Shown here: in pieces, positions 2,612-35,934 of the stretch
Layout of the letters: the number at the start of each line of letters is the position of its first letter
Numbering within the stretch: the stretch's first letter is position 1
Assembly (NCBI GenBank): GCA_017461475.1
Contig: JAFTXX010000003.1
Location: forward strand, 1 to 43,170
DNA length: 43,170 bases
Direction of reading: 5' to 3'
Source of the DNA: Clostridia bacterium
GTDB lineage: Bacteria > Bacillota > Clostridia > Oscillospirales > CAG-272
Notes under the pieces: generated by a model
Database searches by the model: none
What the model saw: only the letters and a program-made list of their open reading frames with translations
Told to the model about the DNA's origin: nothing
Position numbers and translations under genes: made by a program

Positions 2612-2616
2612 AATGA

Positions 2617-3627: not shown

Positions 3628-3660
3628 ATTGCTTACCTCCTGTCCGATTTTTCGCAAATA

Positions 3661-4389
3661 TTACTCTGCAATCTTTGTGTGGAACTCTCTAACCCTATCC
3701 ATAAATTCTTTTACATACGCTTCGCATACGTCTCCGTAATCATGATGACCGTCCTTCAGCCAACTTCCAATAATGACACCATCTGCAAACTGCAACTTTT
3801 CGCAAACATTGTCGGCAGTAACACCTGCACCGACGATCAAAGGGAAGCCACTCAACACCGATCTAAACTCAACCAATTTTTCGGTTGGACAATCTTTTCC
3901 GGTTCCTTCTCCGGTTGTTACAACTGCATCACAGCGTTGCTTTGCAAGAACTGCATCCTCCTCAAGCGTTCGCCCGCTTTTGATAGGCTGATACTTAAAG
4001 CGGAGACCGCCGAGAACTTGAAACGATCTGTCATTCATCAGCTTGATGAGCTCATCCGCATACACCATATCTTTTTCGGGAGTTAAGTGACCGCATACAG
4101 AGTCGATCTGCACGAAATCAGCACCGTACTTTTCTGCGAGTTCAAATGCCGTTCTGTAATCTCCGAGAATATTTACTCCATAGAGCTTGTCCGGCATATT
4201 TTTATGTAAATAGTCGAGTGCCTGTACGCAGTTTCTTGTGTCTCCAAAATAGTTTTCTACAAGAACTGCATCAACACCGTTTTTATAATAGATTTCTGTT
4301 TCTTTTATCATTCGCTCCATTATTTCTACATCCGAATTTCCTTTCAGATGAAGCATAGCAATAATAGGCTTTGTTTCAAAATTTAGCAT
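3661..4389 (-). CDS. BtpA/SgcQ-family TIM-barrel protein
   Basis: A 242-residue protein with BtpA/SgcQ-family signatures: PIIAMLHL at the N-terminus, GVDAVLVENYFGD, FVQIDSVCGH, VTTGEGTG and the C-terminal VGAGVT and ADGVIIGSWLK phosphate-binding-like segments. The family is a TIM barrel; BtpA was named for photosystem I biogenesis in cyanobacteria, but in Firmicutes members are probably sugar-phosphate or nucleotide enzymes of unknown substrate. The start at 4389 is chosen for GAGG 8 nt upstream. It sits directly before the NADAR-macro gene, consistent with a nucleotide or ADP-ribose salvage role (inference). Confidence 0.82.
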   Translation of the reverse strand: MLNFETKPIIAMLHLKGNSDVEIMERMIKETEIYYKNGVDAVLVENYFGDTRNCVQALDYLHKNMPDKLYGVNILGDYRTAFELAEKYGADFVQIDSVCGHLTPEKDMVYADELIKLMNDRSFQVLGGLRFKYQPIKSGRTLEEDAVLAKQRCDAVVTTGEGTGKDCPTEKLVEFRSVLSGFPLIVGAGVTADNVCEKLQFADGVIIGSWLKDGHHDYGDVCEAYVKEFMDRVREFHTKIAE

Positions 4390-4441
4390 TTGCATATCCT
4401 CATGTGTTTTTGTCCTAAATAATATGGATACGAGACGTTGA

Positions 4442-4741
4442 TTATTTCACTTCAAAACCATCAATGCGGAATGAGAGTCCTTTCTTTTCAGCGTACTCCA
4501 TGACAGACTCGATAATCTTTTCCTTGTTTTTATTAACAAGCATTACCGCAATTTCATCTTTGGTTTCTTGCGGCAGCATATCAATCATTTTTCCTGCAAT
4601 CGACGGTGGCATTCCTGCAATCTTTGCCAGAATAGCTATACCTGTACCATCTTTTTCTACCAATTTATCGTGTACCATTGGTAAGAATAATTCCACCAAT
4701 GCACCATAGTCTATATTGTTAATATCGAGGGTGATCTTCAT
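4442..4741 (-). CDS. Hypothetical protein, 99 aa
   Basis: A small acidic-to-neutral protein with predicted helical heptad-like stretches and no membrane segment or cysteines. No family is recognised. The start (MKITLD) has AGGAG about 7 nt upstream, which partly overlaps the stop of the DUF1810 gene 10 nt before. An in-frame start further upstream would read into that gene and is rejected. Tight spacing puts it in the same transcript; its role may be regulatory or as an adaptor, but nothing in the sequence decides this. Confidence 0.65.
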   Translation of the reverse strand: MKITLDINNIDYGALVELFLPMVHDKLVEKDGTGIAILAKIAGMPPSIAGKMIDMLPQETKDEIAVMLVNKNKEKIIESVMEYAEKKGLSFRIDGFEVK

Positions 4742-4751
4742 TTTTGTTCTC

Positions 4752-5180
4752 CTATACTGAATGGTTATATAATATATGGAGTGTGTTCCTGTCCTTCTGT
4801 CCGGCGTAGTATTTGTCAATAACCTTTCCAAAGACTGAATCGTAACCTTCAACTTCTGCAAATAGCGTCATCGAAGAGCAGAGCTTCAAACCATCAATAT
4901 CGCCCATAACTCTGTATGGATCGTTCGTTTCAAGTTTCAGCAACGCTTCGCTGATTTCTTTTAATCTTGTGCCAAGCACAGGATGTGTGAGGTACATTTT
5001 TGCTTCTTCGAGATTTTCTATCCCGTAATATTTTGCAGTAGAACTTCTGCCAAGTTCTTTGAGCTGCGGGAAAATATACCACATCCAATGGGTCCGCTTG
5101 AATCCGTTTTTTATTTCCGCCAAGGCAGTTTTGTAACTACATCCTTGAGCTTGAATAAATCTATCTAAATTGTAATTCAT
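4752..5180 (-). CDS. DUF1810 family protein
   Basis: The 142-residue protein matches DUF1810 along its whole length: DRFIQAQG near the start, ALAEIKNGFKRTHWMWYIFPQL in the middle (two overlapping blocks, residues 19-40), and LGTRLKEISEAL then LKLCSSMTLF towards the C-terminus. The family has no firmly established activity that I know of. It is soluble and compact. Its place in a run with NADAR-macro, BtpA and phosphoesterase genes suggests a linked nucleotide-related role, which is inference. The ribosome site is AGGA about 11 nt before ATG. Confidence 0.88.
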   Translation of the reverse strand: MNYNLDRFIQAQGCSYKTALAEIKNGFKRTHWMWYIFPQLKELGRSSTAKYYGIENLEEAKMYLTHPVLGTRLKEISEALLKLETNDPYRVMGDIDGLKLCSSMTLFAEVEGYDSVFGKVIDKYYAGQKDRNTLHILYNHSV

Positions 5181-5204
5181 AAGTCTTGTTTCCTGTTTGG
5201 ATTG

Positions 5205-5417
5205 TTAGTCAATCACATTTTTAATTGAAGCGGCAAGCTTTTTTGCATAAGTGAATGCTTTTTTTCCAACAACAATTGGCGTGATAGGAATAAACGGCAT
5301 CGGCGCAGGATCAACAATCACTGTACTTCTAAACTTTATTGCCTCTATATCAGCAACGAATGCATCTTTAATAGATAATTCGTTAATGTTTTCGGTTATA
5401 GGTGTTTTTTCACTCAT
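5205..5417 (-). CDS. Hypothetical small protein, 70 aa
   Basis: A 70-residue protein of unknown family. A proline-rich segment ([17 protein letters not shown], about residues 37-53) sits between a polar N-terminal half and a short Ala/Lys-rich C-terminal helix. The preferred ATG at 5417 has AGAGG about 5 nt upstream, and it overlaps the stop region of the HD-domain gene (stop at 5410-5412), so the two are translationally coupled. The proline-rich segment could bind a partner or be a short membrane-associated loop; neither is shown. Confidence 0.55.
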
Positions 5418-6048
5418 ATTTTTCCTCTTTGTTTTCATATGCTTGCATTGTCAGATCAATGGCATCGACAACACTTGTAATATGGTATTTCAATGTAAAT
5501 AGTCTGTCAGATTCTTCCGGAAAATGGTCTTTAGCCTGTCTCAGCAAAGGTAGCACATAGGTCCTTGTTTCATCTATGTACGATTTAAGTTTTTCGATAG
5601 AAAATGTTCCAGCCATACTTGATACATTATGGCAACGATCAATCAGTTTAGTTATAACAGCTTCTTTGCTTTGAATCAGCATATTATAATACCGTGTCTT
5701 GGCGATCTCTTTCGTTTCACCATCCAACACGGTAAAAGTCATTAGTTGTACCCCCCTGCGAACCACATCATTCACAGGAAGCTCTTGTAAGGAAACGCCA
5801 CAATCTTCACACACATCATGTAGGAGAATGGTCGCAATAATATTATCGTCTTTAATTCCCATACTCATTGCATCACAAGCCATAGTAAGCGGATGAACAA
5901 TATAAGGTTCTCCGCTTTTTCTCAATTGACCTTGGTGTTTCTCTCTTGAAAAAGTCAATGCTTTAAGAGTTTGTTCCATCCTCAAAGCTGTTGCGAAACC
6001 TCTTATATAAGTGTACATTTTGTCAGGACTAAAAACGGATTTACTCAT
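5410..6048 (-). CDS. HD-domain hydrolase, SpoT/RelA-HD-like (possible alarmone hydrolase)
   Basis: A 212-residue protein matching the HD hydrolase domain of RelA/SpoT enzymes and of small alarmone hydrolases. Visible motifs are [17 protein letters not shown], then the HDxxED motif as HDVCED (about residue 77), and KLIDRCHNV near residue 139, all metal or substrate ligands in that family. No synthetase, TGS or ACT domain follows, so it would be hydrolase only. The substrate could be (p)ppGpp or a related nucleotide. GGGGG lies about 9 nt before ATG. Confidence 0.85.
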
Positions 6049-6078
6049 AATGTTACCCCCACACTTTATTATGATTTA

Positions 6079-6852
6079 TCAACTATCGGAATATTGTTTT
6101 AGTAGACGATATTGATAATTCAATTTTGCAAAACGTTGAATACGATGTAAGAACACCGTATCGGAAACCCCGCCAATTACACCTACAACCGGAATCCCTT
6201 GTACAAACTTCAAAAACAACATCTCATCAGCCAGTGATGAAGCGGAAGCTTTGATTTGGTCTTTGATAGTATCTTCAGAAGGAATAACAACCGTTTGCGT
6301 ATATGAATCAAGCTGATCTAAACAGTTTTTCAGATTGTCTCCATATGACATAGCTCCCTGGATTATTAAAAGCTGATAGAGCTGTTCTTCTGGATTTGTA
6401 TAATCATATCCGTAATTCGTGGATATTTCGTATAGGCTCCGAAGAATAACAGCCGTAAGTAATGGAATATCGGGGATGCCACATCCAACAAGTCCGAGTC
6501 CGATTCCTTCGACACCGGAAATAAGCAGATTGATAGAGTTCGACGTGTTGGATTGTCTTGAAAAGGCTCTGAGAGACTTTTTGTTTTGCCTCACTTCATA
6601 TGCAAAACGGTTGATTTGATATTGCTCCTCAGCGTTTTTCTTGTTATATGTTTTGTCAATCAGCGGTGTTCCGTTTTTGTAAATAACTTCAAACGCCTTG
6701 CAGAACGCTGCATTCAAAGTGGCTCGTAGTTTTTCCGGAACCTTTGCGGTAAGCTCTGGTGCCAGTTCTTTTTTAGCCGCATGTTGCTTTAGATATTTTG
6801 TACGTTTGTTGATTAATGCAGACAATTCTTTGTCCGCAATTTTGGTTTTCAT
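6079..6852 (-). CDS. EcsC family protein
   Basis: The 257-residue protein resembles EcsC-family proteins: a central hydrophobic Gly-rich helix pair (about residues 110-145, with EGIGLGLVGCGIPDIPLL) followed by a helical region ending in GIPVVGVIGGVSDT (about residues 218-232), which is typical of the family. It lacks a signal peptide and is probably peripheral to or inserted in the membrane. EcsC function is poorly known, and the Ecs transporter genes are not here. The start is taken at 6852 (AGGA about 10 nt upstream). A 176-nt gap separates it from the radical SAM gene, so it may have its own signals. Confidence 0.75.
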   Translation of the reverse strand: MKTKIADKELSALINKRTKYLKQHAAKKELAPELTAKVPEKLRATLNAAFCKAFEVIYKNGTPLIDKTYNKKNAEEQYQINRFAYEVRQNKKSLRAFSRQSNTSNSINLLISGVEGIGLGLVGCGIPDIPLLTAVILRSLYEISTNYGYDYTNPEEQLYQLLIIQGAMSYGDNLKNCLDQLDSYTQTVVIPSEDTIKDQIKASASSLADEMLFLKFVQGIPVVGVIGGVSDTVFLHRIQRFAKLNYQYRLLKQYSDS

Positions 6853-7028
6853 CACTGCTTCATCCTGTTCTGTATTGGGAGTGTAGTAATAATCTTTATC
6901 CGTTTTGCTGTGAGGTAGTCTTTTTTATGTGCAATATGTTTTTAGCTGCTCCAAAGCATACTTTCTGGAAGATACACAAAATGGCTTAGGTATAGCTCAT
7001 TCAGCTCGGACACTTTAGTGATGTTGCC

Positions 7029-8159
7029 TTAATACTTCATACCTATTCTGCCGTCGTCAAAAGCCTGCAGAAGATTATAGGTGGCGTTAATAATTCTTTT
7101 CTCCCTTTCGGTATATGCCTCTTTGCCTTTCAATCTGCCTATCCACAAATGTGCGGATGCTCTCAAATTCGCCTGATAAAGTTTGCAGTGCAAAGGATCT
7201 CTGAAACGGATATCTCCTCTATATAAATAATTGGCACCCAAACAGGAATAACAGGTATGCTTTACTGCACAGTGCTTACAACGCGGGTCTTCATAATCTG
7301 TATCCTTATCAAAAAACTTGCCTTTCAGTGTCCTGTCTTCCGGCATAACCAGGTTTGACAGCATGTGGCACGGATATGCCGCGCCTTTCATATCGTAAAA
7401 AAACATAGAAATTCCCGCGCTGCAATAGCATGGCTGTTTTTCTTCTTCAGGATGATCAAGTACTGATTCTATTTCCACAATCAGGTTGCATGGGTTGATC
7501 CGCGGATGATTTATATAATAATTCGCCAAACGATAAAGCGATAATTCATATTGCAAAACCGACTCATCAGACCATGCACTTTCTTCATAGGCGACATTCG
7601 CGGTAAACGGAACCCCCTGCTCCTGAAGAGCAATGACGTCGCGGTCCACATAGGGGGCAGTGCTTTCGCTTATTGTCATTTTCCAGGGCTGTTTTGGCCA
7701 GGTTTCTCTAAAGAAATCTCTGTCGATATGAACAGAAGAATTGCTCCTGTTCATATCCTGAGATTCATCATCGCCATCATAACTCAGTCCCAAAGAAACA
7801 ATATCCCTGTACTCTCCAAACCATCGTTTCATTTCGTCTGTTAACAGAGTACCGTTGGTCGCAATAAAAAAGACAACTTTTCTTTCGCTTTCAAAAGCAA
7901 TCACACGTTCTACGATTTCTTTTAATTCATCAAAATGTGTCAATGACTCTGCCCCCATAAACATAACCCCCAAAGGGATCTTATCAGGAGCCAGTTCCTT
8001 GCATATCAGTTCAACCGCTAAATCCACATCTATTGTTTCGTTGCTTTTTTGCTTTATATAACAATAGCTGCAATTTAGATTGCACGCATTAGTAAACCAG
8101 ATACCAAGCATATTGACACTCTGCCCGCAAGGGGAACATTCTTGTGTAAAGATAGTCAT
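7029..8159 (-). CDS. Radical SAM/SPASM peptide maturase
   Basis: A 376-residue radical SAM enzyme. Cys26, Cys30 and Cys33 (CNLNCSYC) form the CxxxCxxC site for the SAM-binding [4Fe-4S] cluster. A C-terminal SPASM region (about residues 240-325) holds many further cysteines (CYC, YPCHML, CKHC, CYSC, then HCKLYQ) for auxiliary clusters. An extra CxxC (Cys8, Cys11) precedes the core. This layout is typical of enzymes that crosslink or epimerise ribosomal peptides. It starts 6 nt after the stop of a gene whose product ends in a Cys/His repeat, the obvious candidate substrate. The ribosome site is weak, suggesting coupling. Confidence 0.92.
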   Translation of the reverse strand: MTIFTQECSPCGQSVNMLGIWFTNACNLNCSYCYIKQKSNETIDVDLAVELICKELAPDKIPLGVMFMGAESLTHFDELKEIVERVIAFESERKVVFFIATNGTLLTDEMKRWFGEYRDIVSLGLSYDGDDESQDMNRSNSSVHIDRDFFRETWPKQPWKMTISESTAPYVDRDVIALQEQGVPFTANVAYEESAWSDESVLQYELSLYRLANYYINHPRINPCNLIVEIESVLDHPEEEKQPCYCSAGISMFFYDMKGAAYPCHMLSNLVMPEDRTLKGKFFDKDTDYEDPRCKHCAVKHTCYSCLGANYLYRGDIRFRDPLHCKLYQANLRASAHLWIGRLKGKEAYTEREKRIINATYNLLQAFDDGRIGMKY

Positions 8160-8165
8160 AATTGA

Positions 8166-9056
8166 TCAGTACCCCGAACACCAATGTGATCCCATGCATC
8201 CATGACCCGAGCCGCAAGAAGAACCCTGCTTGAGGACGGTACCAATATCATCGGGACCCTTATATGTTTCTGTAATTTCCGCTTTAGCCTTCATTTCGGA
8301 TATGGCGTTCATATCATCGCTAACAATATCCTCTAATGCCGCACCTGCTTTTGATATTTCAATACTTCCCGGATCGGCTACCTCTTTTGCCAGCGGGATT
8401 TCAATCGAATATGTATCATTACCTGCCTCGGACAGATAATCGTCAACAACTTCTTCTGCAAAAGCTCTTGCATCTGTTTCGATTGCCTGACTTTGATAAC
8501 CCTCAAAATCATAAGAGGGGTCAATATAATTGGTAAACTCATATTCCCACTGATCTAACGTTTCTTGGGGAATATCCGGGAAAGCATCGGGATTTCTGAG
8601 AGCATCTGTCTGAAGCTGATGTCTCATTTCATGTGTAGTAGTATTCAGCAATTCGCTTAACCGAGAAGAATCTGCTACAAGTCGAACATCAATCCCTAAA
8701 TAGCCATCTCCACAATTAACACCCTGTGTACCATATCCATACATCTCATACAAATCAGCAACATACACACCCTTTGTGTCTATACCAAGGGCTTGTCCTG
8801 CTTGTGCGTAGTATTCATTAAGATATGATGTTCTTTCTTCGATAGAGAGATTTTCCCAATTTGAAATTACCTCATCAGTAAAAATCTCGCCCATAATATC
8901 AGCAGCGGTTTCGATTCTTTCAAGATCGGCTTCGCTATACTCAACACCTTCTGAATTTCTGATTTCTTTATTTTCGGGAGCTTCATTTACTCCTTCGCTA
9001 AAACCTTTATTTGTAGAGAGCGTACCGCTAAAAATGTCAAGAGCAGAGTCTAACAT
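8166..9056 (-). CDS. HExxH metallopeptidase-like protein with C-terminal Cys/His-repeat tail (candidate radical SAM substrate)
   Basis: A 296-residue protein without signal peptide. His142-Glu143-x-x-His146 (THEMRHQLQ) is a zinc metallopeptidase motif. About 46 residues later comes QAIETDARAFAEE (Glu193), a layout seen in metallopeptidase-like toxin domains, with Glu193 as a possible third ligand. The last 20 residues are unlike the rest: after VLKQ there are Cys281, Cys287 and Cys293 spaced exactly six apart, with His285 and His291 each fifth in their hexad. The adjacent maturase gene suggests this tail is modified. AGGAGG lies 8 nt before ATG. Whether the peptidase is active, and whether it frees its own tail, is unknown. 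Confidence 0.85.
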   Translation of the reverse strand: MLDSALDIFSGTLSTNKGFSEGVNEAPENKEIRNSEGVEYSEADLERIETAADIMGEIFTDEVISNWENLSIEERTSYLNEYYAQAGQALGIDTKGVYVADLYEMYGYGTQGVNCGDGYLGIDVRLVADSSRLSELLNTTTHEMRHQLQTDALRNPDAFPDIPQETLDQWEYEFTNYIDPSYDFEGYQSQAIETDARAFAEEVVDDYLSEAGNDTYSIEIPLAKEVADPGSIEISKAGAALEDIVSDDMNAISEMKAKAEITETYKGPDDIGTVLKQGSSCGSGHGCMGSHWCSGY

Positions 9057-9112
9057 CTTTTATTCCTCCTGTATCTTTATTTTTCATCCGAACGAACTTT
9101 TTTGAATGTTGG

Positions 9113-9421
9113 TTACTTTTTAATCCTTACCACGTGTTTGCTGTGTTCAATGGACTTTTTAGCGGCAAAGGGATCTCGTCTCAACCAGTCAAGAGAGAGA
9201 TATGCTGCAAGCACGGTTAAATGAGGCTGAGCCTTCAAAATAGAGTTAACATCATGTCCTGCATATTCCGGGCTTGCAATAGTATCTGTTTCGATCCACT
9301 TTTCAAATGCTTCCCGAATGTCGGGGGAGAGCGCTTCAATCTTTCCCGACACACGCTCAACCTGCACTTTGTCAAGTTTCTTATTCTCGACTAATTCCTT
9401 TATAATTTCCTGAATCGTCAT
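9113..9421 (-). CDS. Hypothetical protein, 102 aa, first gene of the radical SAM unit
   Basis: A helical, soluble protein of unknown family with no cysteines. The sequence begins MTIQEIIKELVENKK and ends in a basic stretch (KHVVRIKK). GGAGG lies 8 nt before the ATG at 9421, so an in-frame TTG upstream is rejected. It is followed 57 nt later by the HExxH protein and preceded by a promoter-like element near 9472-9477. It may be an escort, immunity or regulatory protein for the modified tail system, but there is no direct evidence. Confidence 0.65.
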   Translation of the reverse strand: MTIQEIIKELVENKKLDKVQVERVSGKIEALSPDIREAFEKWIETDTIASPEYAGHDVNSILKAQPHLTVLAAYLSLDWLRRDPFAAKKSIEHSKHVVRIKK

Positions 9422-9543: not shown

Positions 9544-12500
9544 TCATTCTTTGTCTGCCAACCACTCGAAATAAAATGACTTTGCTTGTGGGTTTACGGA
9601 ATTTCGGCTCATTATTAAAACTGCAAGAAAATCCGTGATTGTGCTCTCGTTTATGCAGACATAATCTTTCATATACTCATATGCTTTTTTGTTCCAATCC
9701 GCAGCGTCATTGGGGAATGGATTGAACAGCTTGTCTGAATCAAACGAGGTTCGCGCAATTCTACACATTTCATCAAAGGAGTCCCAAGCTGTCATTTTGC
9801 CTACAGCAAGATAGTTCTTAATGTACTGACTGATCTTTCTGTCGTTTTTATCCCGGCTTAAAGACAGTACATCCATTGCATCTGCACAGTACTGCTTTGG
9901 TGGAACGTTTCTTTTCATTCTCTTGCAAAGCAATAATTCCAGAAATACGCCTCTTGCCTTAAGGAGAAGGTCTTTAGGCACCTCATACGGAGTATAATCC
10001 AATGGGCAAAAGCTTTCCGAAGGGAAAAGATCAATTTTGCACAAAACGGGATTCAACCATCCGCTTTGATGAACAACCGCCACACCCGTATTAAGACGTG
10101 CAATTTCTTCGATTTGAGAAGCATTGAGTGAAACTGCTTCACTAACAGGTGTTCTATCTTTAATATTCGGAAGTCTGAAAATCACCTTTGATCCCGTGTT
10201 GCTGATTACGGCTTCGGACATAATAGACGGTGTTTGATCGGCAATAATGAAGCCTTCGCCGTATGTTCGCATTTCAGCAATAGCATTAGTCAAGATTTCA
10301 ACAGACATTCCACGAAGATTTGCACTTTCCATAGATTGTGCTCCAGAGGTAGCTCTCAGCAAATGGTGTGCTTCTTCAAGTAACGTAACATGACGCAGAT
10401 CTTGATTGATACCTGTACGTTTACAAGAACGATGTTCCTGCAGACGAATAATCAAAATGCCCATAATAAGAGCTTTTGTTTCACCGGAACCAATGCGGCT
10501 AATATCTATGATGGTGTTCTCGTCAAACAGCTTTTTGTTGTCAATTTCCTGGGAGCAGAAAATCTGTCCGCAGATGCCGTTTGTCATAGACTTAACACGA
10601 GTAACCAACGAACCGATATAATTGCTCGTTACCTCCTGGGAGTAAGCTGCATCCTTGATGACTTTTGGCAAAATATCAAGAAGATCTGCAAATGTCGGGA
10701 AAATGGGAACATCATGAGAGCAGGTGCTTGTGAGCAAATCCCAACCACACGAAATATAAACTTGTTCAAGCGCATCCTTTAGTATAGCAGGCATAGCTGC
10801 ATACATAGGCCAGCTTGCATTGAATACTTCGATAATTCTATCCATGTGCTCAAGAACATCAACTCCATCCGGGAATGCAAACGGATTGATGGACAGCACA
10901 GGAGTATATTTACTGTTCGTACCATAAACATTAACATCGTCTCTGCCGCCAAAAACAGTAGAATACTCGCCCTTTGCAGGTTCGACCACAAGGAAATTTA
11001 CACCGCTTTTTGCCAACCTATCCAGAAGAACATAACAGAAATTCGATTTACCGGAACCGGGCTGACCGGCAATAAATGTATGTTTTCTAAGTTCGTTCAA
11101 TGACAAGCTTACCTTGCTGTCACTTACACTACCCATATGCGTAATGTTACCGATCACCACGCCGGTGTCATTGTCATCGGTTTTGATGATATCACGAGAA
11201 AATTCGGCGTGGGAAGTAACCATCAAGCCGGGCAGAGACTTTCTGGGCCATGCAAAATGCAAAGGAAGGTCCTGTGAAGATGCTGTAGTGGTTGCTGTAA
11301 CATCACCTAAAAGCTCGTTGCCAACAGAGAAACGAGGGTGTTTCATATGTTTGAAATACTCGCAAAGCAACGCAGTATCTTTGTGCTCTTGCCATACATT
11401 TACATACGAAACGCTTGCTTCGGGAGATGACCCTGTCAACAAAGAACGATACAAGCTGGCTCCCATTCTTGCGGTAGCTTGATCTGCCGCCATCAAGTAT
11501 GCTGCACATTGGAAAGCACCGTTTCCTTCGCAAGCAGTTAAGCGGTTAATATGAACATCAATAGCAGAGAGAAGACTTCCTACCGAACGGTTCTCCATAG
11601 AGTATTGCATAGTTTTTCCGGTAGAGTGTGTATCTCCCATAGTGTCAGTAGTAGTATCTGTTTTTCCTTCTGCTTTGCTTTCGGAATAATTTGTGCCCTT
11701 GCTAATGGAAATTCCCTTGTTTTCAGAAGATCCTTCTGAAGTGCTTGCGGTAGGAGATTGAATCATCGTTTGAGCTGCTTTACCAATCGCTCCACCTATA
11801 CTTCCACCAACACTTGCAAAGATAAAATCACCGCCACCAAGGACAGCACCGCCAACCGCACCGGCTACGTTTGCGGCAGCCGCAAAAATATCAACAGCCT
11901 TATCCTTCTTTGTCTTTTCATCCTGCTTTGTTCTTGTAAGTGTACGAGTCATGCCGGTTGTATCAGTTGTAGAGTCGGTGCTTCCTTCTGATGTTGTCAT
12001 AGTCTGAGAAAGGGATTCACCAATAGAACGAGAAAAGCTCTGTGTATCTGTATCTGACATTGATGCGCTCAGCTTATGGAACGGTGTTAATTGCGTATAG
12101 AGGCTCTCATAACCGTTCTTGATCGCCGAAATTGTCTTGTGTGATAGAGCAGATGCCAAAACCACAAGATTGAAAGGAATACCGTTCATACCATCCACAA
12201 GCTTTTCCATGCCCTGCAGATAGGATGCACCTTCGCCTCTGGTGGAGGCAATGCTTGAAATAGAGGCAATCGCCAGAGAATCTTCGTGGTCATAATCCAT
12301 TACGTTGTCGAGCAATTCTTTGACTTGTTCTTCTGTTGTGCTTTCAGAAATACAACCGGGAAAGTTTCCGGAAAGGGCACGAGAGAAGGTTCTGGAAGCA
12401 AGCTGAACTTTTTGTGGGTCATCACAAGCGGTGCCCATATACAAATCGGTTTTGCTTCCGTCATGCTTCAAAATAAATACTGCCGTTGCGTCGTAACCGG

Positions 12501-12780
12501 CAATGGAATTAAATACTCCAGACAGTTTATCAGAGATACTTTCGTTTTCATCATACGTCAAGCAAGCCATATGATAGAGTCTTACCTTTGATTCCGGCGC
12601 AATCCTCTTTTCCTTGTCAGACAGAGGAATGATTTCCATGTTGTCAAGCTCCGCTAAGTATTGCATACGAACCATTTTATCGGCTGTATCCAATGCTTCT
12701 GCCAACGCTTTTTCAGAGGGTACAATATCTGTTGCCGATTGTTCTGCCGTTACGATTGCATTATTTTCATTCATAATCAT
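9544..12780 (-). CDS. Large HerA/DUF87-type ATPase
   Basis: A 1078-residue protein with a HerA/FtsK-like ATPase in its C-terminal half. Walker A (GQPGSGKSN) is near residue 570 and Walker B (TLLEEAHHLL) near residue 800, with GFIIADQTPS after it, as in HerA/DUF87 motors. The N-terminal half is unlike known helicases: a roughly 230-residue folded region, then Ser/Thr-rich low-complexity stretches (about 245-285 and 345-390) flanking a Gly/Ala-rich hydrophobic segment (about 295-340) that may enter a membrane. HerA-like motors often pump DNA or work in anti-phage systems. RBS AAAGGA precedes ATG. It ends the dynamin operon. Confidence 0.85.
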   Translation of the reverse strand: MIMNENNAIVTAEQSATDIVPSEKALAEALDTADKMVRMQYLAELDNMEIIPLSDKEKRIAPESKVRLYHMACLTYDENESISDKLSGVFNSIAGYDATAVFILKHDGSKTDLYMGTACDDPQKVQLASRTFSRALSGNFPGCISESTTEEQVKELLDNVMDYDHEDSLAIASISSIASTRGEGASYLQGMEKLVDGMNGIPFNLVVLASALSHKTISAIKNGYESLYTQLTPFHKLSASMSDTDTQSFSRSIGESLSQTMTTSEGSTDSTTDTTGMTRTLTRTKQDEKTKKDKAVDIFAAAANVAGAVGGAVLGGGDFIFASVGGSIGGAIGKAAQTMIQSPTASTSEGSSENKGISISKGTNYSESKAEGKTDTTTDTMGDTHSTGKTMQYSMENRSVGSLLSAIDVHINRLTACEGNGAFQCAAYLMAADQATARMGASLYRSLLTGSSPEASVSYVNVWQEHKDTALLCEYFKHMKHPRFSVGNELLGDVTATTTASSQDLPLHFAWPRKSLPGLMVTSHAEFSRDIIKTDDNDTGVVIGNITHMGSVSDSKVSLSLNELRKHTFIAGQPGSGKSNFCYVLLDRLAKSGVNFLVVEPAKGEYSTVFGGRDDVNVYGTNSKYTPVLSINPFAFPDGVDVLEHMDRIIEVFNASWPMYAAMPAILKDALEQVYISCGWDLLTSTCSHDVPIFPTFADLLDILPKVIKDAAYSQEVTSNYIGSLVTRVKSMTNGICGQIFCSQEIDNKKLFDENTIIDISRIGSGETKALIMGILIIRLQEHRSCKRTGINQDLRHVTLLEEAHHLLRATSGAQSMESANLRGMSVEILTNAIAEMRTYGEGFIIADQTPSIMSEAVISNTGSKVIFRLPNIKDRTPVSEAVSLNASQIEEIARLNTGVAVVHQSGWLNPVLCKIDLFPSESFCPLDYTPYEVPKDLLLKARGVFLELLLCKRMKRNVPPKQYCADAMDVLSLSRDKNDRKISQYIKNYLAVGKMTAWDSFDEMCRIARTSFDSDKLFNPFPNDAADWNKKAYEYMKDYVCINESTITDFLAVLIMSRNSVNPQAKSFYFEWLADKE

Positions 12781-12795
12781 ACTTGTCCTTTCTAT

Positions 12796-13731: not shown

Positions 13732-13744
13732 TAACGCCTTCTCC

Positions 13745-14233
13745 TTATCGGTATTTTTTTGCTTCGGCAATCAGCTTCTTGTACCAAATAACAAGAGGGG
13801 ATTCCTGGTTGCTGTCAACAGATTGAAAGTTCAAACACTCCAAAAGCAGTTCGTCTTGTTCATCAAAACACGACAAAAGCTCCTGATTAGTTATAACCGT
13901 GTAGTATTTTTTGAGTTTCTGTGTGATGGTGCGGTTTTCATTCTTTTCAGCAATTACATTCCAATCAATATCTTTCCACTCTGGCAGGGTTCGGAGGTTG
14001 TTGTAAGTTAGTATTGTTGCCGAAGGATAGCCAATCCTTAGATATGCAAATGGTGGCGACAAGGTATCCATTTTTTCTGTGGACGTAACTTTGAAAAAGG
14101 GAACGATATATTCAGTACCTTGCTTCACGGCAATAGGAAAGCCCATACAAGCTTCCATTGGAATCAGCATACATACCTTTCTGGAAAAACGGATGTTGTT
14201 GAGCCATTCCTTAAAATCAATGTCATAATTCAT
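13745..14233 (-). CDS. Hypothetical protein, 162 aa
   Basis: Soluble protein of unknown family, rich in Tyr, Trp and charged residues, with an N-terminal segment VCMLIPMEACMGFPIAV that could be a buried beta-hairpin rather than a membrane helix. Its ATG overlaps the preceding stop codon by 2 nt and its ribosome site GGAGG lies inside the end of that gene, so the pair is translationally coupled and probably made in a fixed ratio. No catalytic motif is visible. Confidence 0.65.
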   Translation of the reverse strand: MNYDIDFKEWLNNIRFSRKVCMLIPMEACMGFPIAVKQGTEYIVPFFKVTSTEKMDTLSPPFAYLRIGYPSATILTYNNLRTLPEWKDIDWNVIAEKNENRTITQKLKKYYTVITNQELLSCFDEQDELLLECLNFQSVDSNQESPLVIWYKKLIAEAKKYR

Positions 14234-15562: not shown

Positions 15563-15627
15563 CGTGTTCACCAACCTTTTTATCCACGGCGAATGACACA
15601 AAGGTCATTCGCCGTGGTTCCATTTTC

Positions 15628-17673
15628 TTATGCCAATGCTTCTGTGCGAATCTTGTCTGCTGTATCAATAATTGTATTGATGTCAGCGATCCATGTAGTG
15701 ATGTTTGCTTTACGAGTCTTAACTGCTTCTTCGCCCTTTTTCTTATCATCAAGCAACTGCTTCGTTTCACGTTCGATCTGCTTGATGTCTGCAAAAGCGG
15801 ATTCTTTAGCTTCTTCACTCAGTTTTGCAAACTCGGTTTTAAGCTGATTATAGATATTATTTACCATATTATCAACTTCGGTCGGATCGGAGAGGATTCT
15901 CTTGTATTCTTCAACAATTTTGTTGCAGACCTTCTTTTCCATAATCGCCTTGTTTCGCCCACCAGTGATCAAAATCTGCGCAATTTCACCAGCGATGATG
16001 ACAGGAAGACCAACCGTTGAACCAAAGACAAGCAGAATTGCAAGGTTAATACCAATATTAGCTACAATACCTTTAATCAAGCCCTCCATACCGACAGCCA
16101 TACCAGCACTTGCACCAATTACATCGAATGTAAGCAAACCGTAAACAACAGATGCAACCTTGGAGCCAGTAGAACTCATTTCATCGGTCGAGGTATGTGT
16201 CAAATTCAACCCAACCTTGATATCGTTGATCGTTTCATCAAGATCGTTGGCTCTATTCTTTAACTTCTCGCCAATTTTCTTCATCTTTTTTGTTACTTCC
16301 GGTTTGAGAACATTTTCAGTCCAATCAACAGTAAAACTTTCATACTGCCCCTGCATATGAACCTCAAATTCCTTTGCAATCGCTTCTGCAGTTCTCTTGG
16401 GGTGAAGCATTTCCTTTTTTACAGAACACTGATATGTACTTCTCCATGTGTCAATTTGATCAAATGCCTCTTTGGGCATTGCCTTGCAAGTGGTTTTGAG
16501 TTCGGTAAGAGCATTATCTAATTCAAGTTCAAAGCTCTGGACGAAAAGTTCAGCCTGTGCTTTAGCAGATTCCATACGAGCTGTTACATCTTTGATTCGC
16601 TGTTCAAATTCCTCCAGTGAAAGATCAGCGGCATTAAACTGTGCATTAAGACTTTGAATAGCATCATTTCCGACGGTTCTGATGCCTTCAACAATCATCT
16701 TGGAGAGTTCATCGCCTTTACACTTGATAAGATAATCGCTCAAATAGCGTTCAAAATCCTGGTATCCAGACTCTTTAAGAAGATCAGTATTCCACGGAGA
16801 AGAATGCTTTGCCTTCTTTGCGTCACGAGAGGATACAAAGAAAATTCCATTTCCATCAAGCATGGATGTGTACTGAGGCTTAACCAAATCGGTGTGTTTT
16901 GCAAGGTCTGCGGTTACGGTCTTTCTGAAAATTTCAAGTTCTTCGGGGTCGCCGCCGCTATTTTCGTTGTCTTCACATACATTGTCGTATCGAGTGACCA
17001 AGAACATAGGAGTTGTATAGTGCTTTAAGATTAGGTTTTCAATAACAACCTTTTCGCTCTGGCTGTATGCTCTCAAACCATTTACGCAATAGATGATAGC
17101 ATGTACGTTGGGAAGATATTTATGCGTAATATCGCCATGGCTTGCAGGGTCATTCAGACCGGGAGAGTCGATGATCTCAACGCCATCCTTCAGAATGTCG
17201 AGAGGCATAAAGACTTCAGCTCTTTCAAACGGAGAGGCAATGACATTACCCTCCATTGTATTGGCATCTTTTCCATCAGCTTCACCGATGTTGTGATTGA
17301 TCAAAAGGTACTTTCTGAGTTCGGTAACAGGAACTTCAAAAGGAGCGTCGCCGCCTTTCCATCTTCCCTTGATAGGGTAGATGACCGCTTTCTTGTCTGC
17401 ACCATACTTGATTTCGGTGATAATAGCAGTAGCTGTCAATGCTCTTTCGGGAAGGATAGGTTCACCTATAAGAGCGTTTATCATAGTGGATTTACCTGCA
17501 CTAAATTCGCCCATAACAAGAACCTTAAAGTTCTTACTCTGATTTTTTTCTTTAAGTGTTTTGATTTTTTCAACAACGTCCTGCTGTGTACCGGTACTCT
17601 GAGCGATCTCCAACAGCTTGTCCAATTGTCCGTCGAGTTTGCTGACTGTTTCCTTAAATACTGCTGTGTTCAT
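15628..17673 (-). CDS. Dynamin-like GTPase (third of three)
   Basis: A 681-residue dynamin-family protein. G1 is GEFSAGKSTM (about residue 57), followed by a switch region with TATAIITE, G3 as DSPGLND and G4 as TRYD. Long helical stretches flank a hydrophobic region (about residues 508-570, with IGINLAILLVFGSTVGLPVII) that could form the membrane-inserting hairpin of bacterial dynamin-like proteins. Such proteins remodel membranes and some protect against phage or membrane stress. Bacterial dynamins often work as pairs; three in one operon is unusual. RBS AAGGAG, 8 nt before ATG. Confidence 0.9.
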   Translation of the reverse strand: MNTAVFKETVSKLDGQLDKLLEIAQSTGTQQDVVEKIKTLKEKNQSKNFKVLVMGEFSAGKSTMINALIGEPILPERALTATAIITEIKYGADKKAVIYPIKGRWKGGDAPFEVPVTELRKYLLINHNIGEADGKDANTMEGNVIASPFERAEVFMPLDILKDGVEIIDSPGLNDPASHGDITHKYLPNVHAIIYCVNGLRAYSQSEKVVIENLILKHYTTPMFLVTRYDNVCEDNENSGGDPEELEIFRKTVTADLAKHTDLVKPQYTSMLDGNGIFFVSSRDAKKAKHSSPWNTDLLKESGYQDFERYLSDYLIKCKGDELSKMIVEGIRTVGNDAIQSLNAQFNAADLSLEEFEQRIKDVTARMESAKAQAELFVQSFELELDNALTELKTTCKAMPKEAFDQIDTWRSTYQCSVKKEMLHPKRTAEAIAKEFEVHMQGQYESFTVDWTENVLKPEVTKKMKKIGEKLKNRANDLDETINDIKVGLNLTHTSTDEMSSTGSKVASVVYGLLTFDVIGASAGMAVGMEGLIKGIVANIGINLAILLVFGSTVGLPVIIAGEIAQILITGGRNKAIMEKKVCNKIVEEYKRILSDPTEVDNMVNNIYNQLKTEFAKLSEEAKESAFADIKQIERETKQLLDDKKKGEEAVKTRKANITTWIADINTIIDTADKIRTEALA

Positions 17674-17702
17674 AATAGGTTCTCCTTATAGTTCATTTAT
17701 TT

Positions 17703-19256
17703 TTATTCTTCATTAGAAAGTAAGGAACTGACAATTTCATCACACATACGGTTGATTTCTGAAATTGCCTTAAATTCAGCAAACACCTTGCTGTCTCCTT
17801 CGTTTGCAGGAGTCTTCGCAGTAGCTAACTGAAGATCCTGGATGGATATACTCATGCTCTTATAGCCGTATTCAATATTTTTCTTCAGCACTTCGATGTT
17901 GTCATCTCTGCTTCCGAGAATATATCTGGCGATTTCGGATTTCAAGCATTGCTGCCTATCGGCTTTTTCCTTTTTGGTTTCCATGAATGTCCAAAAACCG
18001 GTTCCTGCAACTGCCACACCCGCAAGTTTCCAATAGAGAGCGTTAATGCTGTGCATTGCCAATGCGGGATATACCAAAACGCCACACAAAGCAACTGACG
18101 ATACAAGCAATCCAGCCATTGCCAAGGTTTTTGTTGCTCTTGTACTGTTCAACCCATTGGGGGCAACACCAAAAACTACATCCTCAAGCTGCGTTTCGGA
18201 ATTGTTTGTATCAATAGAAAGTTTCGATCCAAAACGGTTTTCTACGGTCTGAACGAGCCAATCACGGTCATTGGTAAACTGAGAGCAAATGAGCTGATCA
18301 ATTTTGTTTGAAATTCTGATGATCTCTCTGCGGAATTCTTTTTCGAGCGACTGTTCCCACCACTCTTTAGGAGATTTCGCAAGCATCGCCTTATCTGCAA
18401 GAGTAGCAATACAATCCGCATACAGTCGATTCATTTCAACGGACATCGCTTCAATCAACTTGAGCTTCCGAGATTCAATCTCAAGTTTGATTTTGTCCCA
18501 AGCAATTTTTTCATCGAGAATAGTCTGCTTGGTCTGTCTTTCGTTATCAGATGCGATTTGCATTTTCTTCTTCAAAGAATCATATTTTTCTGCGATGTTC
18601 GCTTTCAAAACTTTCGCATAGCTTACGGCAAGCATATAATCTCGGATATCGATACTATCCTCAGCAGAAGCGAAGTCATTCATGATGGCTTGTTTTGTAG
18701 CTTCTTCATCTTTAGTGTTAATTACAATTAGAGAATCAGAGCCAAAGTGACGTTCCGCCTGCGTCTTGATATATGCAATGATTTCCTCTTTTTCTGATTC
18801 ATCTGTTGCATCCAACTTGTTTAAGACAAGAGAGCAAGGTACACCGTGAGACAGACACGCCTTGATAGCAACTACATCCTGCTGAGAGAACGGCGTAGTA
18901 GCAGAAAGCACATAAATTGCCGCATCAATGTGCCACAGAGGAGAATCAATTTCTTTTATGCCATCTCCGACATAAGCATTGGTACTCAATTCAACCCATC
19001 TACAATTGTTCTCCACAGATTCAACAAAAGCAACCTTTCCATGCTCGTTTGATCTTACAGAAACAGGGAGTTTCTTTTCGCCTGCCAAAATATTGATGAT
19101 TGTGCTTTTGCCAGCATTAACATCACCCAATACAGCGTACTGTTTCATAATGCTACGCTGCATCGACACCCGGACTTCATTGTAGCTTTCCTTCACCTCG
19201 GAGTATCCAGCTTGATCGGCAAGAGCGTTCAGCTTATTGTAGATATTTTCATTCAT
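17703..19256 (-). CDS. Dynamin-like/Era-type GTPase (second of three)
   Basis: A 517-residue GTPase. G1 is GDVNAGKSTI (about residue 42) and G4 is NKLD. The G3 position reads EIDSPLWH, so the usual Gly of DxxG is replaced and hydrolysis may be altered. Two membrane segments (about residues 378-395 and 408-425) follow, separated by a short loop, then a helical tail. Its ATG overlaps the stop of the first dynamin gene (ATGA), showing translational coupling. The atypical G domain suggests it could be the structural partner of a hetero-oligomer with its neighbours. Confidence 0.85.
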   Translation of the reverse strand: MNENIYNKLNALADQAGYSEVKESYNEVRVSMQRSIMKQYAVLGDVNAGKSTIINILAGEKKLPVSVRSNEHGKVAFVESVENNCRWVELSTNAYVGDGIKEIDSPLWHIDAAIYVLSATTPFSQQDVVAIKACLSHGVPCSLVLNKLDATDESEKEEIIAYIKTQAERHFGSDSLIVINTKDEEATKQAIMNDFASAEDSIDIRDYMLAVSYAKVLKANIAEKYDSLKKKMQIASDNERQTKQTILDEKIAWDKIKLEIESRKLKLIEAMSVEMNRLYADCIATLADKAMLAKSPKEWWEQSLEKEFRREIIRISNKIDQLICSQFTNDRDWLVQTVENRFGSKLSIDTNNSETQLEDVVFGVAPNGLNSTRATKTLAMAGLLVSSVALCGVLVYPALAMHSINALYWKLAGVAVAGTGFWTFMETKKEKADRQQCLKSEIARYILGSRDDNIEVLKKNIEYGYKSMSISIQDLQLATAKTPANEGDSKVFAEFKAISEINRMCDEIVSSLLSNEE

Positions 19257-21112
19257 TTTGCAATTTCTCCTTTCAATTCATCTATTTGCTGAAGAACAGC
19301 CTTAATCCTATTTTGAAGATCTTCGCTGTGTTTTATTTTTAGTGTGAGAGACAATTTCTCCATAGTAAACTGTTTTTCAAGTTTTTCGTAAACGGGCTTG
19401 TATTGAGCAACAAGCTCGTCCTTTTTTGTTTCCAATGCTTTTCTTGCTTTACTATAGTTAGTCTGCATTCCATTGCAGAGTTCTTGCACAATGGATTTTG
19501 AAATTTCCGGAATCTTTCCGGAAACCGACTCTCTGACCTTGCTACGAGACGAATCTACAAACAATCTGTCTCCGCCAATTAAAGCCGCAACACCTCCGAT
19601 AATCCATCCGATGGGACCCAATCCTGTCAGAATGATTGCCGCAAGTCCTGCTCCTCCTACTGCCGTTGCAATATCAATTTTTCCTTCGTAATCACCAATC
19701 ATACCGCTTAAGCCAGTAAGCTTGTCCGCTATGGCTATTTGATGTTCCGAAGTCGATAGAGAGGAGTTTTCGGGTAAAACACTTCCGATTTCCCCATAAT
19801 ACTTTTTCAGTTTTTCGATCATCCCAGCAATAGCAGAGGAGAGTGCTTTGTTGAGGTTCTGCGTATGCTGTGTTGAAGTTGCATATATACCTTTGCAAGC
19901 ATCTTCTATATCGGCGGCAAGAGAGTTATTGACATACTTTGTCACACCCGATCTTGTATCACAAGCGTTCAGTCCAGAATTCACTTTCTGCATGATCTTG
20001 TTTTCAAGGTATGTACTTTCGCTCTTTATTGCCGTATTGTGTGCGGTCTGAATCTTAGACAATTCATCAATCGCTGCAACCTTACTATCTGCAAGAACAG
20101 AGATTAGGTTTGGAACAGAGTGATTTTGAAGAACTGTTAGTCTATTTTCAAAACCTGTTTTTTGACTGAGTATTTCGCTCTGAATAGAGGTCAGCAATTC
20201 GTTGGACAACTTAATGAGTCTTTCGGTTACAATTCGTTGCCTATTCTGTGCCAGTTTGTCCATCAGACTTTTTTCAAATTCCTTGAATTTGTCTGTCCAA
20301 TAAGGATCTTTACCAGATAGCATTGCTGAACAAGATAATACCTGGGGATCTTTTAAGTGGAAATTGTTGCGGAGATTTGTCTTTACAAACCTAATAACAT
20401 CATCCCGTTCTTCTTCGTCTACTCTATCCATCATCGTGACAACGAAGATGGCATCCTTCATAAAGTATTCTGCATTATCCTTTAGGAATTTCTCAAAAGA
20501 CTGAGTATACGCCTGATCTGCAGGGAAAAGAATAATAATTGCATCAGCTTTTTCATTGAGAATGTGTTTGGTGATTTCTGCGTGTTTTTCAGCAAAATCA
20601 GCACCAGGATTGATTCCAGGGGTGTCGATGATGCAGAGACCATTGGCGAGTTCATCGTCCGGTAGCTCTATGTTCACCGCTTCGATCTTCAAAGACAGCT
20701 CTTTGTCGGCTGTTAAAAGCGAAATTCTTTCATCAATTTCTGTTGGAAGCTGAATGCCGAATTCCTTTTCAAATTTTCTTACATCTGTTTCGGAAGTCAG
20801 ATCGTATTTTTTTCCGTTGTCACATTTAACATTAACAACAACACGATTATTTTTTCCTTTGTAGATATAGGTAGGAACTGCAGTAGTTGCGGCATGAGCA
20901 ACTTTTAGGAGCTTTCTCTTAATAATTGTGTTAATCAATGTGCTTTTGCCAGAGCTAAAATCACCGATAGTGGAGAGATAGAAATTTGTATCTCTGCTTC
21001 TGAGTGATATTTTTAAGTATTGTTCTCTGAATTCGGCAATCTTTTTTTCATCGATAGATAATTCATCAATGATGCTGCCTATAGTTTCTATGCTTTCAGA
21101 TATGTTGTGCAT
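19253..21112 (-). CDS. Dynamin-like GTPase (first of three)
   Basis: A 619-residue dynamin-family protein. G1 is GDFSSGKSTL (about residue 50), a switch Thr lies in HAATTAVPT, G3 is DTPGINPG and G4 is VTMMDRVD. A hydrophobic Gly-rich hairpin (about residues 478-515, GGAGLAAIILTGLGPIGWII) is the likely membrane paddle. Helical bundle regions on both sides match bacterial dynamin-like proteins. ATG at 21112 is preferred; an in-frame GTG at 21121 is possible. It opens the three-dynamin run, 124 nt downstream of the XRE gene. Confidence 0.88.
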   Translation of the reverse strand: MHNISESIETIGSIIDELSIDEKKIAEFREQYLKISLRSRDTNFYLSTIGDFSSGKSTLINTIIKRKLLKVAHAATTAVPTYIYKGKNNRVVVNVKCDNGKKYDLTSETDVRKFEKEFGIQLPTEIDERISLLTADKELSLKIEAVNIELPDDELANGLCIIDTPGINPGADFAEKHAEITKHILNEKADAIIILFPADQAYTQSFEKFLKDNAEYFMKDAIFVVTMMDRVDEEERDDVIRFVKTNLRNNFHLKDPQVLSCSAMLSGKDPYWTDKFKEFEKSLMDKLAQNRQRIVTERLIKLSNELLTSIQSEILSQKTGFENRLTVLQNHSVPNLISVLADSKVAAIDELSKIQTAHNTAIKSESTYLENKIMQKVNSGLNACDTRSGVTKYVNNSLAADIEDACKGIYATSTQHTQNLNKALSSAIAGMIEKLKKYYGEIGSVLPENSSLSTSEHQIAIADKLTGLSGMIGDYEGKIDIATAVGGAGLAAIILTGLGPIGWIIGGVAALIGGDRLFVDSSRSKVRESVSGKIPEISKSIVQELCNGMQTNYSKARKALETKKDELVAQYKPVYEKLEKQFTMEKLSLTLKIKHSEDLQNRIKAVLQQIDELKGEIAK

Positions 21113-21235
21113 TTCACTCACCGTCCTTTGAGTATATCATACTACAAAATTCTCATTTTTCTCATTTTTCGTCATAATCGGACCTCAAAACTGCATTTTT
21201 GGCAAAAACCTTATTGAGAAGTTCATTGCTGACTC

Positions 21236-34311: not shown

Positions 34312-34332
34312 CAAACGGCTATCCACCGACAT

Positions 34333-34399: not shown

Positions 34400-34483
34400 G
34401 GTTTGATGTGGCTATTAACTGTGTGCAAAATAATTTTTTATCTAATAGGGAAGAACATCTGACCTAAAAGAAAGGAACATATC

Positions 34484-35932: not shown

Positions 35933-35934
35933 TT

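Follow-up and report, generated by a model that had tools for sequence, protein, structure and literature searches.

Several described systems come close to the locus analysed here. In the freyrasin system the minimal core of the precursor PapA, CSANDA, is a hexad in which the linked residue stands in fifth place (PMC9413430). QhpD is a SPASM enzyme which links Cys to Asp or Glu within an enzyme and not in a released peptide (PMC8326336). RiPP-type domains on large carriers are known from the bufferins, which are modified by an MNIO enzyme and include MerC and cytochrome/FGE fusions (PMC12452194). Polymorphic toxin systems combine swappable toxin-type domains with small partner genes and SUKH immunity; their processing peptidases are located N-terminally or before the C-terminal toxin domain, their toxin peptidases C-terminally (PMC3482391).

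Our window, a stretch of 43,170 nucleotides from a Clostridia bacterium, contains a HExxH protein with a Cys/His tail (P0001), a radical SAM/SPASM maturase (P0002) and a small gene (P0003), all on the minus strand (Table 1), and it resembles each of these systems in part. The hexads CGSGHG and CMGSHW of P0001 share the register of CSANDA, and the best NCBIfam match of P0002 is the PapB model (NF047865), but its 110.5 bits lie far under the cut-off of 340, and the tail shows CX3H twice instead of the CX3D/CX3E repeats of PapA, having His as the fifth residue where PapA has Asp/Glu. Furthermore the core of P0001 is fused to a peptidase, and whereas PMC9413430 expects an RRE domain to bind the leader, the radical SAM core of P0002 is preceded by little sequence. 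The model for CXXX-repeat targets (TIGR04115) matches 14 of 14 scanned maturases (best E 7.5e-51), and CxxxC repeats are found in many precursors of the P0002 group, but P0002 itself reaches 66.4 where the cut-off is 350, and the tail of P0001 has a spacing of six, not four. As with QhpD, the target would be an enzyme rather than a released peptide, but P0002 reaches only 61.9 with a cut-off of 453, and no subunit of the QhpD kind is seen here. In the bufferins, too, large proteins carry a domain whose Cys are modified, but the enzyme class is MNIO and not radical SAM, and the carriers described in PMC12452194 relate to metals, not toxins. With polymorphic toxins the locus shares the exchangeable toxin-type domains and small partner genes, but no delivery domain was recognised in P0001; the accessible part of PMC3482391 assigns FtsK/HerA ATPases to the type VII route and mentions neither dynamin nor a modified tail. 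Neither a radical-SAM-modified tail on a toxin nor a dynamin/HerA/toxin operon was found in the literature searched, subscription papers lying mostly outside it. The first-pass annotation knew of no described system with this layout, which fits that literature, except that RiPP-type fusions to large proteins as such are known from the bufferins.

Results and Discussion

P0001 ends in ...SSCGSGHGCMGSHWCSGY, following the pattern C-X3-H-X-C-X3-H-X-C, and its four Cys are located at positions 115, 281, 287 and 293 of the translation. The first-pass annotation had described three Cys spaced by six at the end of the protein, a maturase starting 6 nt past its stop and a small gene ahead of both (ATG at 9421, stop at 9113), and all three observations hold on the sequence. 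Its further statement that His is the fifth residue in each hexad is right for both complete hexads (2/2), the third one being cut off by the stop. With four Cys placed randomly in 296 residues, the probability that at least three fall in the last 16 residues is p = 5.6e-4, and that of finding a 6-6 spacing somewhere in the protein is p = 2.9e-4, both tests being post hoc as the pattern had already been seen.

Table 1: Features of the locus within the window, with the evidence for each.
Feature	Position	Strand	Evidence
P0002, radical SAM/SPASM maturase, 376 aa	7029..8159	minus	motifs, family models, tree
P0001, HExxH protein with Cys/His tail, 296 aa	8166..9056	minus	ORF; sampled windows show in-frame codon usage
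Core-like tail of P0001, residues 279-296, C-X3-H-X-C-X3-H-X-C	8169..8222	minus	sequence
C-terminal extension of P0001, residues 216-296	8169..8411	minus	not present in any of the 7 homologues found
Leader-like helix motif, residues 243-257, DIVSDDMNAISEMKA	8286..8330	minus	motif score; weak
Metallopeptidase-like domain, residues ~65-215, relative of DUF6782/SprT-like zincins	8412..8864	minus	alignment with 5 homologues; L125 homologue passes the DUF6782 cut-off
E193 in ETDARAF, likely third metal ligand	8478..8480	minus	invariant in 6 aligned sequences
HEMRH motif, residues 142-146	8619..8633	minus	H142, E143 and H146 shared by all 6 sequences of the alignment
P0003, small partner gene, 102 aa	9113..9421	minus	relative of small genes beside tail-less HExxH homologues
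P0005, HerA/DUF87-like ATPase	9544..12780	minus	family models; homologues followed by toxin-type genes
P0010, dynamin-family GTPase, same gene run	15628..17673	minus	Pfam Dynamin_N
P0011, GTPase	17703..19256	minus	Dynamin_N below cut-off
P0012, dynamin-family GTPase	19253..21121	minus	family model

The fusion of HExxH domain and tail is a single known case from a draft genome of 86 contigs with a completeness of about 76%, and no second protein of this kind was present among the matches listed in the genome sample. It is probably no frameshift artefact, because the annotated frame is the one preferred by codon usage in 34 of 34 sampled windows of 25 codons including the junction (residues 209-250), with a weak in-frame score (0.08) for the last 27 codons taken alone. 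A split of P0001 by an internal start was also considered and rejected, as no convincing ribosome site precedes M248 or M255 by eye. An AlphaFold model from the single sequence (mean pLDDT 40, pTM 0.30) was uninformative and showed the extension without predicted structure.

Residues ~65-215 of P0001 are likely a zincin-type metallopeptidase-like domain, judged from the conservation of a HExxH motif together with a likely third ligand: H142, E143, H146 and E193 are shared by all six aligned sequences. P0001 itself has no DUF6782 match in Pfam at E up to 1, while its homologue in locus L125 (E 2e-10) lies over the gathering score of that family (30.1 vs 27); matches of P0001 relatives to SprT-like, M76 and other metallopeptidase models stay below cut-off. 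For P0001, Pfam and PHROG gave weak matches only, NCBIfam none at E up to 1 and PADLOC none at E up to 0.01; comparison with the sequences of solved structures gave no known-family match, and plasmids and phages gave no match. A single-protein scan of viral contigs likewise found no close relatives of P0001 or P0002. The domain might also be a HExxH 2-oxoglutarate-dependent oxidase which tailors the tail together with P0002; the silence of NCBIfam, which presumably contains a model for such oxidases, would speak against this. HExxH oxidases do occur in RiPP clusters, even in fusion with radical SAM domains (PMC12636437; cf. Morishita 2024), but the metallopeptidase matches of the relatives, and the existence of homologues without tail or recognisable radical SAM gene, make this reading very improbable.

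Altogether seven homologues of the HExxH domain were found (L002-L006, L101 and L125), a HExxH protein in L127 having been ruled out as a relative (best BLASTP E 0.72). All seven have the same catalytic residues as P0001 and end near the domain, the tail being present in none of them, and no maturase was recognised in the surrounding stretches of 2.9 to 18 kb. The first-pass annotation had named homologues lacking both tail and maturase as evidence against its reading, and this is in part what we observe, with seven of seven lacking the tail and no maturase recognised nearby. For the same reason tail and maturase are, by sequence comparison, an addition to the peptidase and not part of its family.

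P0002 shows the radical SAM motif CX3CX2C (C26, C30, C33) followed by seven SPASM-type Cys, as is expected of a radical SAM/SPASM maturase. In an alignment of 14 family members, 246, 264, 294, 297, 303 and 306 of these seven are invariant and 325 is almost invariant. The SPASM spacing CX5CX2C is one residue off the canonical form, the branch in the tree is long (1.57), and P0002 has GAES in place of the GGEP that is found in nearly all relatives of the alignment. It belongs to a group of 16 maturases from, going by record titles, at least five phyla (tree support 97/92 among 37 sequences), and in 14 of the 16 loci a Cys-rich gene, judged by eye, is the neighbour, L023 and L097 having no credible one. 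A mechanical test for Cys-rich neighbours gave 14/16 group members compared to 21/68 control ORFs. The Cys-rich segment is mostly C-terminal and its carriers vary: a double zinc ribbon with tail (L018), a protein with a Tat-like signal below cut-off (L024), a protein of 232 aa (L025) and two paralogues of 118 aa with an internal Cys-rich stretch (L100). Most of these precursors have tighter Cys repeats compared to the six-residue spacing with His in P0001. In the sister group, locus L085 has a Cys-rich protein of 667 aa, and L042 a short Cys-rich precursor adjoining an ABC transporter, the classic layout for a released peptide. As 14 of 16 group members adjoin a Cys-rich gene, the tail of P0001 is probably the substrate of P0002, and the earlier prediction to this effect is supported by both counts.

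Cys/His patterns often bind zinc, and P0001 could instead be an ordinary metalloprotein beside a P0002 that is dead or acts elsewhere. The GAES motif, and the fact that P0002 passes no NCBIfam cut-off among the models shown, would suit this explanation. The gaps around the trio hold three mechanically called ORFs, each 24-27 aa long and containing two Cys, so another substrate of P0002 is conceivable, but by eye they are unlike the precursors of its group. With the Fe-S cluster Cys of P0002 kept, the maturase only 6 nt away and its group tied to Cys-rich segments, we regard a purely metal-binding tail as quite unlikely.

Of the layout expected for a RiPP precursor, the core and the adjacent maturase are clear and the leader motif is weak. 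This leader-like motif lies about 37 residues ahead of the first tail Cys and has a score of 8.82, for which p is 0.005 when the extension alone is considered and 0.023 across P0001; it was obtained with a motif block from an alignment that had the window sequence in it; one of 11 control proteins, P0012, scored higher (11.19). A Pfam scan of eight neighbour proteins from seven group loci, a part of all neighbours, gave one M18 aminopeptidase and neither an ABC exporter nor a C39 peptidase, and therefore, within this partial sample, a tail that stays on is favoured. The HExxH domain might instead be a built-in leader peptidase which acts, in cis or in trans, after cross-linking by P0002: a cut somewhere in residues 216-280 would release a small cyclised peptide as the active product. 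It sits directly ahead of the leader-core unit with its candidate metal ligands kept, a position that fits the processing peptidases described in PMC3482391, and L042 shows that a released-peptide layout with ABC transporter exists in the sister group. However, no exporter gene was seen among the scanned genes around the trio, and as the seven homologues have no tail to release, the HExxH domain has another job there, which makes a built-in leader peptidase unlikely and leaves self-release of the tail, an earlier suggestion that none of the results supports, as a possibility that the homologues do not favour. We give little credence to a related reading, in which P0001 is a toxin with a RiPP warhead, the metallopeptidase domain carrying a radical-SAM cross-linked Cys/His peptide and freeing it once inside the target cell or in response to a signal, with a new ring type (Cys-to-His or Cys-to-backbone across the CX3H hexad).

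The gene run around the trio places P0001 in a toxin slot. In 11 of the 12 P0005-homologue loci read, a toxin-type gene follows within two genes downstream, so that variable toxin domains occupy a fixed slot as in polymorphic toxins; these are mostly nucleases including colicin-type DNases, SUKH immunity genes are present in 4/12 loci, and L118 is the locus without a toxin-type gene. Dynamin genes lie upstream in L120-L123 and L125, in L124 by likeness, and not immediately upstream in L118 and L119. The slot of L125 holds the tail-less P0001 homologue together with a homologue of P0003 (E 5e-7), and the two effectors of this locus have a common N-terminal motif of 32 aa (53% identity, E 5e-7). 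The tail-less homologue L002 likewise has a HerA-type ATPase upstream, at a distance of about 3 kb (L102). The trio of the window occupies the same slot behind P0005, which lends support to the earlier suggestion of a tail on a peptidase toxin.

P0003 has only weak family-model matches, none over a cut-off, and compares at 26% and 24% with the small genes next to tail-less homologues; it is located ahead of the effector, whereas the small gene follows it in L004, L101 and L125. Among 59 relatives P0003 was found in one, its own genome, and P0005 in two, and both are absent from five genomes of the same genus (53-84% complete). Rfam gave no match at gathering score, and scans for promoters and terminators around the trio stayed near or under the level of shuffled sequence (6 vs 10.4; 5 vs 3.4, sd 2.2).

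The dynamin/HerA operon might also be a phage-defence module which senses infection and unleashes the effector in its own cell, with P0003 restraining it. WYL-type regulators are annotated beside two operons (L120, L121), the PADLOC models for LeoA/LeoBC and HerA match the dynamins and P0005, and operons are carried on plasmids. On the other hand SUKH immunity and colicin-type DNases, both present in the slot loci, are typical of inter-bacterial toxins, and we know of no defence phenotype for such an operon. We consider phage defence a serious if doubtful possibility; it concerns the target of the effector and is compatible with any reading of the tail, so that its probability does not add to theirs.

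Our tentatively preferred explanation, held with slightly less than even confidence, is that P0001 is a metallopeptidase effector of the variable slot behind the dynamin/HerA-ATPase operon which gained a maturase-modified tail that stays attached. Its catalytic part would be the zinc-metallopeptidase-like domain (residues ~65-215) and P0003 its cognate partner, perhaps an immunity protein. At its C-terminus the effector of this lineage would have acquired a RiPP-precursor unit of a weakly supported helical leader (~243-257) and an 18-residue Cys/His core, and P0002 would bind the leader and cross-link the core. The simplest chemistry would be thioether rings from each Cys to a residue inside its own hexad, perhaps His (cf. 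PapB, CX3D). The modified tail would then form a compact cap which remains on the effector and may serve stability, loading, targeting or gating of the peptidase.

Conclusion

The P0002 group seems to treat the leader-core unit as a portable tag which can be placed on zinc ribbons, Tat-like exported proteins or an enzyme. If such a tag is modified while part of a large protein and is then kept, it would offer a route to enzymes capped by constrained peptides. The dynamin/HerA operon with its swappable toxin gene merits study by itself. If our explanation is true, P0001 would be a toxin with a tail of modified peptide that arms or controls it, and would link radical-SAM peptide chemistry with exchangeable bacterial effectors, two fields that seldom meet.

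Results and Discussion

A re-reading of the sequence bore out what the first-pass annotation had described, namely a metallopeptidase-like protein (P0001) with an HExxH motif and a C-terminal tail C-X3-H-X-C-X3-H-X-C, followed after a gap of 6 nt by the gene of the radical SAM/SPASM maturase P0002. The last 16 residues of P0001 hold three of its four Cys (p 5.6e-4, random placement) and the tail Cys keep a 6-6 spacing (p 2.9e-4), both tests being post hoc. The annotated frame of P0001 was top-scoring by codon usage in all 34 windows sampled, the junction included; the final 27 codons, taken alone, gave a frame score of only 0.08. The chief reservation concerns the fusion of peptidase and tail, a single case from one draft genome.

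Genes of the trio in the window, and toxin-type genes in the slot downstream of homologues of the ATPase P0005 in other loci (L-numbers)
Feature	Position or locus	Strand	Remark
P0003, small partner gene	ATG 9421, stop 9113	-	first of three in gene order
P0001, HExxH protein	9056-8166	-	second in gene order
P0002, maturase	8159-7029	-	third in gene order
Colicin-type DNase/WHH	L110, L119, L121, L122		
HNH nuclease	L120		by annotation
GH-E nuclease	L123, L124		
Non-specific endonuclease	L126		
Papain-fold Gln amidase	L128		
HNH-like protein	L125		by eye, no Pfam match; DUF6782 HExxH further on
Peptidase_Mx1-like HExxH	L127		below cut-off

None of the 25 NCBIfam models shown is matched by P0002 above its cut-off, the top match being the ranthipeptide maturase PapB (110.5 bits vs a cut-off of 340); for the remaining 13 members of the family alignment the NCBIfam matches are by E-value only, without cut-off comparison. 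In its own order P0002 is without relatives at E 1e-20 (one of 394 genomes, its own). The class search gave nine of 391 genomes at E 1e-15 including its own, two others being below 1e-40, and the phylum search three of 398 at 1e-60, the own one counted. Plasmids yielded four records, of which the best one was taken, viral contigs one relative, and reference genomes the best 80 of 422 relatives; among the matches listed the best nine have E ≤3e-39 and the tenth 9e-20. In a tree of 37 sequences, 16 maturases including P0002 form one side of a branch with support 97/92, the other 21 sequences being 20 radical SAM rows chosen by us and the enzyme of locus L127. According to the record titles this group spans Bacillota, Bacteroidota, Synergistota, Acidobacteriota and Pseudomonadota. 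The branch of P0002 is long (1.57) and its placement within the group, with two Alistipes sequences, is moderately supported (91/81). Residues 69-72 of P0002 (gene 7029-8159) read GAES where nearly all aligned group members have GGEP, which may be relevant to SAM binding.

By eye, a Cys-rich segment is present in an adjoining gene for 14 of the 16 group members (window, L008, L009, L016-L022, L024, L025, L099 and L100) and in none adjoining L023 and L097. It is C-terminal or nearly so in 13 of these 14 and internal in L100. A mechanical test was also positive for 14 of 16, vs 21 of 68 other long ORFs of the same loci; it missed L009 (two Cys only) and counted L097, whose ORF is doubtful. The carriers vary, with a double zinc ribbon in L018, a Tat-like signal below the cut-off in L024 and a 232-aa protein in L025. 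The L018 protein (5587-5931), directly 5' of its group maturase, is a second protein made of carrier plus Cys-rich tail. Just upstream of the precursor in L020 (4053-5624) are another gene with a radical SAM-like motif and two short ORFs that are very rich in Cys.

A Pfam scan of eight group-neighbour proteins from seven loci revealed neither a C39 peptidase nor an ABC exporter, which favours a tail that would remain on P0001 after modification. Locus L042 from the sister group, with a short Cys-rich precursor and then an ABC transporter, shows that a released-peptide layout exists nearby. Also in the sister group, L085 (3387-5390, Candidatus Termititenax) encodes near its maturase a 667-aa very Cys-rich protein with CGxxC-type repeats and no Pfam match.

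The precursors of the group have a loose helical leader in common. Scored with a matrix from ten precursors, the top window of P0001 is residues 243-257 (8.82; p 0.005 within the extension of residues 216-296 and 0.023 across the whole protein). Because the leader block was taken from an alignment that itself contained the window sequence, the leave-one-out scores of the members range from -0.5 to 17, and the dynamin-like P0012, one of the 11 window proteins used as controls, scores higher (11.19), this candidate leader is suggestive only.

Homologues of P0001 were found five times beyond its own genome among 394 genomes of the order, and together with L101 and L125 they make a set of seven. 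In all seven the HExxH domain is the C-terminal end and the tail is absent, and no radical SAM gene was recognised in the 2.9 to 18 kb read beside them (about 3 kb for L005 and L006). All six sequences of an alignment keep H142, E143, H146 and E193 unchanged. The L125 homologue is above the cut-off for DUF6782, 'putative metallopeptidase', and P0001 itself has no Pfam match reaching this model. An 883-aa ORF near L002, caught by a motif filter, is a HerA-type ATPase according to Pfam (DUF87 and HerA_C). It lies at L102:12326-14977, about 3 kb upstream of L002, which is therefore a second tail-less homologue near such an ATPase. Relatives of the small partner P0003 adjoin the homologues in L004, L101 and L125 (24%, 26% and E 5e-7, respectively), downstream in these loci and upstream in the window. 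As the homologues are without tail and without a recognised radical SAM gene in the stretches read, and P0003 relatives stand beside three of them, peptidase and small partner look like an older pair on top of which tail and maturase would have been added. The homologues also speak against self-release of the tail, as considered in the first-pass annotation, having been the original job of the HExxH domain. In P0001 the tail may persist on the protein, be removed by the HExxH domain itself or gate the active site of that domain.

Just upstream of the trio lies P0005, a HerA/DUF87-like ATPase with homologues in one other genome in one search, seven in another and 41 plasmid records. Twelve loci were read (L110 and L118-L128; eight genomes, four plasmids), and in 11 of them a toxin-type gene follows at most two genes downstream of the homologue, L118 showing none. 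SUKH immunity genes then follow in L110, L119, L120 and L122. Among the loci other than L128, dynamins are found upstream in L120-L123 and L125, as in the window, and by likeness in L124; the gene just upstream has no dynamin match in L118 and L119, none was seen by eye in L126, and L110 and L127 stop at the contig edge. Positions 9544-21121 of the window and the 12 loci present an operon of dynamins and a HerA-type ATPase in which the ATPase is followed by an interchangeable toxin gene, the dynamins being confirmed in some of the loci; plasmids of Lactococcus, Treponema and Exiguobacterium carry this operon too. In L125 (6724-8366) the HNH-like and HExxH effectors share, as modular effectors do, an N-terminal FKEIKP...FWNK motif (32 residues, 53% identity), possibly a loading signal.

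The layout of the window recurs in L127 (8418-13655) as HerA-like ATPase, small gene, HExxH protein and radical SAM enzyme (475 aa). This HExxH protein has no BLASTP relationship to P0001 (E 0.72), a Cys tail was not seen in it, and its neighbouring radical SAM enzyme does not group with the 16 maturases in the tree. A 2714-aa RHS-like protein (by eye) then follows.

Elsewhere in the window, the stretch 1150-6855 looks like a conflict-gene island, with vWA, NADAR-plus-Macro, DUF1810, HD_4 and EcsC proteins (Pfam) and, by eye, a metallophosphoesterase and a BtpA-like protein. At 33268-37125 hydF (HydF domains, Pfam) comes after hydE-like and hydG-like genes, both named by eye, the first being a radical SAM gene (Pfam).

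Conclusion

Our literature search, covering partial texts, turned up no toxin-slot peptidase with a tail linked to a radical SAM enzyme. Two papers describe related cases, the bufferins as RiPP-type domains on large proteins (PMC12452194) and QhpD as a SPASM enzyme acting on an enzyme (PMC8326336). PapB crosslinks Cys with the residue four positions further along in hexads of the CSANDA type (PMC9413430). In our proposal P0002 would bind the leader of P0001 and form rings in the tail core, with a chemistry analogous to that of PapB, and P0003 would hold the capped effector until use.
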